The position numbers were made by a program, and so were the translations under genes. A DNA stretch of 64,000 nt from Planctomycetota bacterium. GTDB taxonomy: Bacteria > Planctomycetota > Phycisphaerae > Phycisphaerales > UBA1924. Numbering within the stretch: position 1 is the first letter of the stretch; each line of letters begins with the position of its first letter. Positions 1,574 through 8,678 of the stretch are shown piece by piece. Location: assembly GCA_003696675.1 (NCBI GenBank), contig RFGH01000224.1, positions 1-64,000 of the forward strand, read 5' to 3'. Under the pieces are notes generated by a model, which ran no database searches, was not told where the DNA came from, and saw only the letters and a program-made list of their open reading frames with translations.

Positions 1574-2614
1574 TTAGAATAACTCGGATGTCTTCGGGGA
1601 GACGCCAAGGTATTCGCATGCCTTGGCGGTGAGTGCCCGTCCGCGTCGGGTGCGGGCCAGGAAGCCGATCTGGAGAAGATAGGGCTCGACCACATCCTCC
1701 AGAGTTCCCGAGTCCTCGTTCATCGTGGCGGCCACGGCTTCGAGCCCGACCGGTCCGCAGTCATAGACCGTGGCGATGGTTCGGAGGTAGGCGCGATCAA
1801 GCTCGTCGAGTCCGAGATGGTCGACGCCTTCGAGCCGCAGTGCGTCATCGACGATCGCGCCGGACATATGTCCTCCCGCTCGGACATCCGCGAAGTCGCG
1901 GACGCGGCGGAGGAGTCTGTTGGCGATCCGGGGCGTTCCGCGGGACCGCGATGCGATCGCTTCGAGCGATCCGGGATCGACGCGATGGATCCCGAGCAAC
2001 GAGCACGAGCGTTCGAGGATGCGTGTCAGTTCCGGCTCGTTGTAGTATCGAAGATGGTGGGTGATGCCGAATCGAGAGCGGAGGGGTGAGGACAGCAGCC
2101 CGGCGCGGGTGGTGGCGCCGATAAGGGTGAACGGGGCGCACTTGATCTGTACGGTGCGGGCGTTGAGCCCGGTGTCGAGGCAGACATCGATGCGGAAATC
2201 CTCCATCGCCGGGTAGATGAACTCCTCGACGGCGACGGGGAGCCGGTGGATCTCATCGATGAAGAGGACATCCCCAGCCTGGAGACGGGTTAGCACCGCG
2301 ACCAGATCGGTGCCGCGGGCCAGGGCCGGACCGGAGGTTGTGTGCACGCGTGTGCCCAGCTCGGCCCCGATGACATGGGCAATGGTGGGCTTGCCCAGAC
2401 CGGGCGGGCCGTGCAGGAGCACATGTTCGAGATGTTCGCGCGAACCATCATCCCGCGCTTTGGTGCGGGCCTGGACTGCCTCGACCGCGATAAGCAGACG
2501 CTCGACGAGTTCGGGCTGGCCGACATACTCGTCGAGGCTGCGTGGACGCAGGGCCCAGTTGGCGGACTCTTCCTCGGGAGTCTGGATGGGCGAAATCAGG
2601 CGTTCGGTGGCCAT
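1574..2614 (-). CDS. ruvB: Holliday junction branch migration helicase RuvB
   Basis: 346 residues, normal family length. RuvB is the hexameric AAA+ motor that drives RuvA-bound Holliday junctions. Visible: the N-terminal LRPRSLDEYVGQ segment, Walker A GPPGLGKPT (residues 69-77), Walker B FIDEIHRL, sensor-1 IGATTRAGLLSSPLRSRFG, the RSRGTPRIANRLLRR arginine-finger region and a winged-helix C-terminus. The Walker A residue after the lysine is Pro76 instead of Thr (codon CCC rather than ACC), which is unexpected in a working AAA+ ATPase. It is convergent with the coiled-coil gene, 38 bp apart. ruvA and ruvC are not in the window. Confidence 0.95.
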   Translation of the reverse strand: MATERLISPIQTPEEESANWALRPRSLDEYVGQPELVERLLIAVEAVQARTKARDDGSREHLEHVLLHGPPGLGKPTIAHVIGAELGTRVHTTSGPALARGTDLVAVLTRLQAGDVLFIDEIHRLPVAVEEFIYPAMEDFRIDVCLDTGLNARTVQIKCAPFTLIGATTRAGLLSSPLRSRFGITHHLRYYNEPELTRILERSCSLLGIHRVDPGSLEAIASRSRGTPRIANRLLRRVRDFADVRAGGHMSGAIVDDALRLEGVDHLGLDELDRAYLRTIATVYDCGPVGLEAVAATMNEDSGTLEDVVEPYLLQIGFLARTRRGRALTAKACEYLGVSPKTSELF

Positions 2615-6888: not shown

Positions 6889-6921
6889 TGCCCCTATCGC
6901 CTGCCGCGATAGGGGCATTTT
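6889..6921 (+). terminator. Intrinsic terminator-like hairpin between rpsJ and rplC
   Basis: A perfect 12-bp stem (6889-6900 with 6906-6917, arms TGCCCCTATCGC and GCGATAGGGGCA) with a 5-nt loop, followed by TTTT (6918-6921). It starts 5 bp after the rpsJ stop codon. By shape this is a textbook intrinsic terminator, placed inside what is normally one S10 transcription unit. Confidence 0.75.
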
Positions 6922-7002
6922 CCTCGAAATCGTCCTCTGCCGGCAACCCCTCGGGGCGGCACGACGCGGAACCCGGCCGAACCGGGATGTGAGGCATCCG
7001 CC

Positions 7003-7692
7003 ATGACCCTTCCGTCCAAGAGCGCCCATCTTCTGGGCCAGAAGATCGGCATGACCCGCGTTTATGACGAGCAGGGCGTTTCGATCCCGGTCACTGTGAT
7101 CAAGTTCGAGCCGAACCGTGTGACCCAGGTCCGCACGCCCGAGGTCGACGGGTATTCCGCTGTTCAGATCGGTGCCGATTCGATGAAGGCCCGCAACTCC
7201 ACCATGCCCCTGATCGGGCATGACGCAAAGGCCGGGTCGGGTCCGCTCCGCATTCACCGCGAGTTCCGTATGTCCGAGAAGGACGCGGCTAGCTTCGAGC
7301 TGGGCCAGGAACTGACCGTAGAGGTCTTCGAAGGCGTCAAGTTTGTGGATGTGATCGGGACCAGCAAGGGCAAGGGCTTCCAGGGCGGCATGAAGCGTCA
7401 CAACTTCAAGGGCCAGCTGGCCAGCCACGGCGTGGAACGCAAGCACCGCTCGCCCGGCTCGATCGGAGGCCATGCGACCAATCGTGGTCACTCGGGCAAG
7501 CTGAAGAAGGGTAAGCGGATGGCCGGTCACATGGGTGCGGAGCGTGTCACCGTCCGCAGCCTTGACATCGTCCGCCTGGACAAGGAGAACGGGCTGATTT
7601 TGGTCAAGGGACCCGTCCCGGGCCCGAACAAGGGCTGGGTTGAGGTCCGTCCTGCGATCCGGCTGAATCGCTCGAAGTCCAAGCGGGGCTGA
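7003..7692 (+). CDS. rplC: 50S ribosomal protein L3 (uL3)
   Basis: 229 residues. L3 is an early assembly protein of the large subunit near the peptidyl-transferase centre. Visible: LLGQKIGMTRVYDEQG at the N-terminus, the GTSKGKGFQGGMKRHNFKG segment, and the long central loop with HRSPGSIGGHA and KGKRMAGHMG. The C-terminus ends RLNRSKSKRG. It lies 118 bp after rpsJ, behind a terminator-like hairpin, and 290 bp before rplD, an unusually long gap for this operon. Confidence 0.97.
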   Translation: MTLPSKSAHLLGQKIGMTRVYDEQGVSIPVTVIKFEPNRVTQVRTPEVDGYSAVQIGADSMKARNSTMPLIGHDAKAGSGPLRIHREFRMSEKDAASFELGQELTVEVFEGVKFVDVIGTSKGKGFQGGMKRHNFKGQLASHGVERKHRSPGSIGGHATNRGHSGKLKKGKRMAGHMGAERVTVRSLDIVRLDKENGLILVKGPVPGPNKGWVEVRPAIRLNRSKSKRG

Positions 7693-7743
7693 GCGCGATT
7701 TGAAGAGTTTGGGCCGATTCGTTCGGTCCGGGTTGATTCCTGT

Positions 7744-7941
7744 CAGGGGCGGGCGAATGATCCCGACCCTGCAAGGCCCGGAAGGTCTGGTTGAGAAACC
7801 ACCGGGCGGCGACAAGTCAACAGCAGCCCGCTCCGACCTGGGTGGGCAGCGCCGAGTCGATCCCGTGCCGCTGGCACTCCTCTAGGGGTGCGTAAGCGAT
7901 AGCCAGCAGCCGGGTGAAGCGAAGCAACCCACGGGGCACGG
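7744..7941 (+). ncRNA. Candidate structured leader RNA between rplC and rplD
   Basis: The 290-bp rplC-rplD gap holds no credible ORF but many complementary segments. P1: CAGGG 7744-7748 with CCCTG 7767-7771, enclosing CGGG 7750-7753 with CCCG 7762-7765. P2: GCCCGG 7776-7781 with CCGGGC 7802-7807, enclosing TGGTT-GAGA-AACCA (7788-7801) with a GNRA tetraloop. P3: GGCG 7808-7811 with CGCC 7850-7853, enclosing GCCCGC 7826-7831 with GTGGGC 7842-7847. P4: CCGTGCC 7863-7869 with GGCACGG 7935-7941, enclosing GCTGGC 7870-7875 with GCCAGC 7902-7907. The P2 bulge AGGTC 7783-7787 could pair with GACCT 7835-7839 in the P3 loop. An L4-responsive leader is a guess. Confidence 0.5.
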
Positions 7942-7982
7942 TGTCCCGAGGGTTTCCGAGGCGTCAGGCGAGGTAAAGACTC

Positions 7983-8678
7983 ATGGAAGTCCCCGTCTAC
8001 GACATTCAGGGCAAGCAGGCCGGCACCATGTCGGTCGACGAAGTGGCCTTGGGTGAGACCGTCAATGCCGACCTGCTGAAGCAGGCGTTCGTGATGTACC
8101 ACGCGAATCTCCGTCAGGGTTCGTCCCGGACGAAGAATCGCGCTGAGGTCGCGTTCAGCCGCAAGAAAATGTACAAGCAGAAGGGCACGGGCAACGCCCG
8201 GCACGGCGACAAGAAAGTGCCGCAGTTCCGCAAGGGCGGCCATGCCAAGCAGAAGACGCGTGTCCGTGAGGATTACCACAAGGACATGCCCAAGAAGATG
8301 CGCCGCAAGGCGAATCGCAACGCCTTCCTGGCCAAACTGCTTGATGACGAGGTAAAGGTTGTCAAGGGCCTGAACTTCTCCGAGCCCAAGACCCGCGCGT
8401 TCGCGGACATGCTCAAGGCGCTCAAGATCGACGCCACTGCTCTGGTGGCGTTGTCCACCGACGGCGAGAAGAGCAAGAACGCTCGCTTGAGTGCCCGGAA
8501 CATCGAGAATGTGGAGCTGTGCCGTGCGGATCAGTTGACGGCGTTCAACATGCTCAACAACCGCTACCTGGTGATCGATCAGGCGGACTTGGAGGCTTGG
8601 TTGAACGGCCCGTCTTCGCAGACCGGGAAGTCCGCCAAGGTCGATCCGATGGGCCGCAAGGCCGAGGGGGTTGCGTGA
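7983..8678 (+). CDS. rplD: 50S ribosomal protein L4 (uL4)
   Basis: 231 residues, slightly long. L4 lines the peptide exit tunnel and in several bacteria represses its own operon. The family loop is visible: GSSRTKNRAEVAFSRKKMYK, then QKGTGNARHGDKK, then RKGGHAKQKTRVREDY. The usual GGGRKPWRQKGTGRARAG is altered to FSRKKMYKQKGTGNARHG, so the tunnel loop is divergent. The C-terminal 20 residues (SSQTGKSAKVDPMGRKAEG) are an extra tail. Its stop overlaps the rplW start (TGATG). A long structured spacer precedes it. Confidence 0.95.
   Translation: MEVPVYDIQGKQAGTMSVDEVALGETVNADLLKQAFVMYHANLRQGSSRTKNRAEVAFSRKKMYKQKGTGNARHGDKKVPQFRKGGHAKQKTRVREDYHKDMPKKMRRKANRNAFLAKLLDDEVKVVKGLNFSEPKTRAFADMLKALKIDATALVALSTDGEKSKNARLSARNIENVELCRADQLTAFNMLNNRYLVIDQADLEAWLNGPSSQTGKSAKVDPMGRKAEGVA

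Follow-up and report, generated by a model that had tools for sequence, protein, structure and literature searches.

Does the long gap between the rplC and rplD genes of a planctomycete encode a structured RNA and, if so, what would such an RNA do in the middle of a ribosomal-protein gene cluster? We addressed this question in a window of 64,000 nucleotides (contig RFGH01000224.1, assembly GCA_003696675.1, order Phycisphaerales), in which the S10 cluster runs in the order rpsJ, rplC, rplD, rplW, rplB, followed by more ribosomal-protein genes. The length of 290 nt given for the gap in a preliminary description of this DNA agrees with the ends of the two genes, since the last base of rplC is 7692 and the first of rplD is 7983. 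Relatives from the same family have rplC-rplD gaps of 192-475 nt, and nearly all of them carry a common motif; the gap is thus neither absent nor unrelated in close relatives. Ribosomal-protein leaders known so far come mostly from other phyla. Two other genes of the window are also of note: the L22 gene (10186-10731) encodes an N-terminal helix-turn-helix (Pfam HTH_31, 1.2e-6) fused to Ribosomal_L22, and the RuvB protein (1574-2614, minus strand) has the Walker A sequence GPPGLGKPTIA, in which the lysine is followed by a proline, either as a real variant or through an assembly error.

The claim that the gap is structured and conserved is borne out by comparison with relatives and not by folding energy. 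The segment 7650-7945 has a z-score of -1.5, with 15 of 200 shuffles folding as well, which on its own is not above chance; for 7768-7947 the z-score is -0.4 (63 of 200 shuffles as good), and the median z-score of the core in 60 relatives is -1.75. Because single-sequence folding is unexceptional, the case for an RNA rests on comparison.

For this comparison we used a covariance model, R1, made from 11 sequences of other genera with the genus of the window left out. Its match in the window spans 7777-7924 and has a score of 51 bits and an E-value of 2.2e-9 (264 kb searched). Over 301 genomes of the order, R1 matched 126 genomes with exactly one copy in each. All of the 108 newly fetched matches are located between rplC and rplD and never before rpsJ, and the remaining 18 each end directly 5' of rplD, as judged by rplD coordinates; within the order, 126 of 126 matches precede rplD. 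The model-fitted alignment covers 99 distinct sequences; pairing is seen in 96.5% of its cells, and double changes are found in 15 of the 17 pairs (0 of 500 shuffles), with a covariation score of 0.472 compared with 0.164 for shuffled and at most 0.106 for slid alignments. A MAFFT alignment (A2) that was not fitted to the structure, which had however been drawn from those very sequences, gives the same picture (0.430 vs 0.179). The compensatory changes on which the preliminary description had made its RNA depend are therefore present, and the gap contains a genuine, lineage-conserved structured RNA.

Table 1. Features of the rplC-rplD gap and its surroundings (window coordinates; promoter, terminator-like site and second leader are predictions).
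Feature	Positions	Strand	Remarks
Terminator-like hairpin with TTTT	6889-6917		rpsJ-rplC gap, directly after the rpsJ stop codon
Second candidate leader	6929-6969		small conserved hairpin directly 5' of rplC; no Rfam match
rplC (ribosomal protein L3)	7003-7692	+	gene 5' of the element; Pfam Ribosomal_L3
Promoter-like element	7733-7761	+	TTGATT (7733-7738)-N17-AATGAT (7756-7761); predicted transcription start ~7768
Conserved core (covariance-model match)	7777-7924	+	51.0 bits with R1, 76.7 bits with R2
Helix P2	7777-7806	+	7777-7781/7802-7806, 7784-7785/7799-7800, 7786-7787/7795-7796
P2 unpaired parts			AA 5' internal loop 7782-7783, AA bulge 7797-7798, purine 7801
CGACAAG linker	7810-7816	+	single-stranded, conserved; from alignments
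Hairpin P3	7826-7847	+	GCCCGC/GUGGGC; variable, absent or different in other genera
GCCGAGUCGA	7851-7860	+	near-invariant; CCGAGT almost constant throughout the order
Helix P4	7862-7914	+	7862-7865/7911-7914, internal loop, 7870-7875/7902-7907
P4 apical hairpins	7876-7889, 7890-7897		GUAA loop in the latter; GAUA precedes the 3' strand
AGCGAAGC	7918-7925	+	window counterpart of conserved (UA)GGCGAAGC; from alignments
Hairpin P5	7933-7947	+	GGGGCA CGG UGUCCC; sequence and length vary among genera
Ribosome-binding site GAGGU	7970-7974	+	8 nt 5' of the rplD ATG
rplD (ribosomal protein L4)	7983-8678	+	gene 3' of the leader; Pfam Ribosomal_L4, 8.8e-48; product is the proposed ligand

The architecture of the element is summarized in Table 1. 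The 5' part of the family pattern reads xCCGG-AA-GG-(hairpin)-AA-CC-R-CCGGx, followed by CGACAA, a variable hairpin and GCCGAGUCGA, and the 3' part consists of helix P4, UAGGCGAAGC, another variable hairpin, a GAGG ribosome-binding site and the start of rplD. In the 99-sequence alignment, P2 has 97.7% of its cells paired with double changes in nine of ten pairs, and the outer four pairs of P4 are 97.8% paired with double changes in all four. The GCC of GCCGAGUCGA and the GGC of the 3' GGCGAA form a further helix in most members (91% paired); in the window AGC replaces GGC as the 3' partner, and one of the three pairs of this helix is therefore lost, while a relative (L002) has GGC. Hairpin P3 has the counterparts GCCCGUU/AACGGGC in L002 and UCCGCCC/GGGCGGA in another relative (L003), and both relatives carry P5 in the stronger form CGGGCACGGUGCCCG. 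P3, the inner part of P4, the apical hairpins and P5 are predictions made by reading the sequence; all listed pairs were checked and are complementary.

The fold drawn in the preliminary description, with a 5' stem, a GAGA tetraloop, a bulge-loop pseudoknot and a mutually exclusive switch, differs for the most part from the conserved one. Its 5' stem (GGGGCGGGC, 7746-7754, with 7826-7834) is unlikely to exist in RNA, since bases 7744-7768 are probably promoter, with the promoter-like element kept at an almost constant distance in the closest relatives, and a transcript starting there would lack this strand. The GGTT-GAGA-AACC hairpin does belong to the energy minimum of the window, but it competes with the conserved P2 pairing of GG 7784-7785 with CC 7799-7800, which covaries in relatives (GG/CC vs AG/CU). 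The pseudoknot between 7783-7787 and 7835-7839 is available to two of 100 cores (L001 and L002, from the same genus), where 2.4 would be expected by chance. Nothing found in relatives demands the alternative pairings proposed for GTGCC, and GGCAC at 7935-7939, one of its suggested partners, is part of hairpin P5. The 3' limit also has to be moved from 7941, as the conserved RNA extends from approximately 7768 or 7777 to the rplD ribosome-binding site.

The promoter-like pattern TTGATT-N17-AATRAT (AATGAT or AATAAT) is shared by the window and five distinct close relatives and lies 86-93 nt 5' of CCGAG (for this spacing, L002 and its duplicate L031 were anchored at position 211 of the gap), compared with 0.18 sequences on average in shuffles. 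A scan with a stricter sigma-70 consensus did not report 7733-7761. The conserved RNA is predicted to start at approximately 7768-7777, just before or at P2, and in the genus of the window an internal promoter would probably drive a transcript that begins with the leader. P2 directly adjoins the 3' end of rplC in more distant families (L134, L136, L137, L286); with no room for a promoter there, the element has to be transcribed together with rplC and rplD. A scan of window positions 7693-7982 found no terminator-like sites.

A second model, R2, was built from 100 sequences. R2 also matches 11 loci outside its training set (L114, L121, L122, L128, L129, L132, L135, L137, L284, L287 and L288), and seven of these belong to more distant families of the order (f3, f5, f6). 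Outside the order, R2 gave no match in the rplC-rplD regions searched, of which 20 came from other orders of the class and nine from another class, Planctomycetia; the gaps there are short or unrelated. Matches in a class-wide search were confined to the order, as were nine of the ten matches obtained from 294 genomes across the phylum; the tenth (G547) is weak, has no rplC or rplD nearby and was taken as a chance match. The element is apparently restricted to one order, Phycisphaerales, and the models detect it in part of that order (126 of 301 genomes with R1). The CCGAGU motif is missing from two loci in other families of the order, L133 (gap of 38 nt) and L285 (gap of 90 nt), which are possible cases of leader loss, and also from the gap of L023, a member of the same family as the window.

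A search of Rfam 15 (4227 families) returned no match at gathering score for the element in the window or in 20 further loci; the best sub-threshold match reached 17.1 bits, below the cut-off of 40. Identity with RNase P RNA was rejected, and the RNase P RNA of this genome is encoded on another contig. We found no report of a planctomycete ribosomal-protein leader in the open-access literature. The compensatory changes, the single copy per genome, the invariable position before rplD and the lack of an Rfam match give strong support to the proposal of a previously undescribed ribosomal-protein leader in the gap.

The closest known system is encoded in the same cluster. In E. coli, L4 is the autoregulator of the S10 operon, and its binding to the mRNA is competed by a fragment of 23S rRNA; the S10 leader serves as 5' UTR for the entire operon and contains a transcription attenuator (PMC10931766). 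The planctomycete element is likewise structured, L4 is its likeliest ligand as it is the known ligand in E. coli, and both systems would balance L4 against 23S rRNA. However, the E. coli leader precedes rpsJ whereas the planctomycete element is always found between rplC and rplD, and the E. coli leader has a Rho-independent attenuator whereas no terminator-like site was found in the leader of the window. Because these two features of the E. coli leader are not shared, we did not assign the element to that type and regard it as a new structural class within ribosomal-protein leaders. A survey of ribosomal leaders reported 20 new ones, including an L4 leader in Archaeoglobi and an L2 leader in Alphaproteobacteria, and none from planctomycetes (PMC7247131). 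The Archaeoglobi leader was likewise predicted to respond to L4 by comparative genomics (Eckert and Weinberg 2020, PMC7247131), but it is archaeal, precedes rplC and is rated as borderline by its authors; the Rfam scan gave no match to our element. The alphaproteobacterial leader, likewise a prediction within the S10 cluster, precedes an internal gene (rplB), but it differs in gene, phylum and predicted ligand, and the element has no Rfam leader match.

We consider it likely that the gap encodes a new, order-specific leader of rplD and the genes that follow, and that this leader most likely binds L4. L4 ranks first among the candidates because its gene immediately follows the leader and because it controls the S10 operon of E. 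coli through a leader. The invariant parts of the RNA (the bulged P2, CGACAA, GCCGAGUCGA and GGCGAA) would constitute the putative protein-binding site. L4 present in excess over 23S rRNA would most likely bind the leader, and bound L4 would lower translation of rplD and of the genes behind it, so that the cell probably adjusts its L4 output by means of a folded leader. The long gap separates rplD from the translation of rplC, and rplD therefore depends on a strong ribosome-binding site of its own; GAGGU is present in 38 of 100 leaders, mostly 7-9 nt from the start codon. Between the conserved core and the start codon lie 12 to 150 nt, no pairing of the core with the ribosome-binding site occurs in the predicted folds, and the mean pairing of the site does not exceed that of shuffled upstream sequence. 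Sequestration of the site by the core was therefore rejected, and the switch itself is invisible in the folds. Since the predicted folds leave the ribosome-binding site unpaired with the core and no terminator-like site was found in the leader of the window, the likeliest mechanism would be that excess protein stabilises a structure which impedes initiation at rplD.

The leader precedes not only rplD but also rplW, rplB and further ribosomal-protein genes, and with several such genes behind it position alone does not single out L4. Another protein of the cluster (L23, L2, S19, L22 or others) could serve as the ligand, as has been predicted for the L2 leader of Alphaproteobacteria (PMC7247131); we regard this as rather unlikely, given that rplD is immediately 3' of the element and that L4 is an established autoregulator elsewhere. 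The leader could also act without any ribosomal-protein ligand, as a translation standby site, as an element that stabilises the mRNA or directs its processing, or as a sensor of a small molecule or of temperature. Predicted folds that lack a ribosome-binding-site switch, and a core that ends at this distance from the start codon, would be in keeping with such a role, but the strict tie to a ribosomal-protein gene and a covarying scaffold that holds conserved unpaired segments would, judging from known leaders, be typical of leaders that bind proteins, and make this reading improbable.

The promoter-like element of the window's genus could serve an independent small RNA, the second possibility raised in the preliminary description, whose gene would lie between rplC and rplD by happenstance. 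This has very little probability: all copies share the strand of rplD and lie immediately 5' of it, the distant families offer no space for a promoter, and no terminator-like site was found between the core and rplD in the window. No copy of the element turned up apart from rplD, which leaves an independent small RNA unsupported. The unexceptional folding energy of single sequences would be expected of a chance structure, a reading that is refuted by covariation across the 99 sequences, and an unannotated coding stretch is refuted by the number of open frames across the core (82 observed, 79 expected from shuffles), with core lengths evenly spread over the three phases; together these two explanations retain a negligible probability. 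An L4-binding leader of rplD remains our preferred reading.

In regard to how L4 might recognize the leader, no mimic of the L4 site of 23S rRNA was found that holds within the order, although a three-dimensional mimic may exist. Against the 23S-bearing loci of the order, R2 gave only weak matches, and the best of these (L296, 17 bits) is located approximately 900 nt 5' of the 23S anchor, covers the P2 half only and was dismissed as chance. A likeness to the H18-H20 junction (GCC-GA...UA-GGC-GAA), seen against the Rfam consensus, was also discarded: the 23S rRNA of this genome differs, and that of the order does not keep it. The helix 16-18 region of the genome's own 23S rRNA (L140) is much shorter than the Rfam consensus and seems to be short family-wide.

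The neighboring rpsJ-rplC gap contains two further features (Table 1). In many relatives, as in the window, rpsJ is followed by a hairpin of this terminator-like kind with a T run, and these sequences suggest that the S10 cluster is split after rpsJ. The small hairpin directly 5' of rplC is composed of an outer stem, CUCU, an inner stem, A(C/U/A) and the other strand of the outer stem, with CUCU facing A(C/U) in an internal loop. Its outer stem covaries (CUUC/GAAG, CGUC/GACG in the window, GCUC/GAGC, GUUC/GAAC), and the covariation score over 18 sequences is 0.296 against 0.062 for shuffled alignments (0 of 500). A genome-wide search of 39 relatives placed 10 of its 12 best matches 5' of rplC by coordinates, with E-values from 2e-5 to 0.02. 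It seems possible, and we propose it tentatively, that the S10 cluster of the order consists of separately controlled units, delimited by the terminator-like site after rpsJ, the hairpin leader of rplC and the leader of rplD, the latter with its own promoter in the genus of the window.

If the cluster is indeed split in this way, the synthesis of L3 and L4 would be sensed by two lineage-specific RNAs and not by one leader at the start of the operon. The rplD leader and the rplC hairpin represent two candidate Rfam families. If the rplD leader functions as proposed, it would be another independent RNA solution for binding what is probably L4, and it would show again, within a highly conserved bacterial operon, that the control of ribosome balance is reinvented in each lineage.
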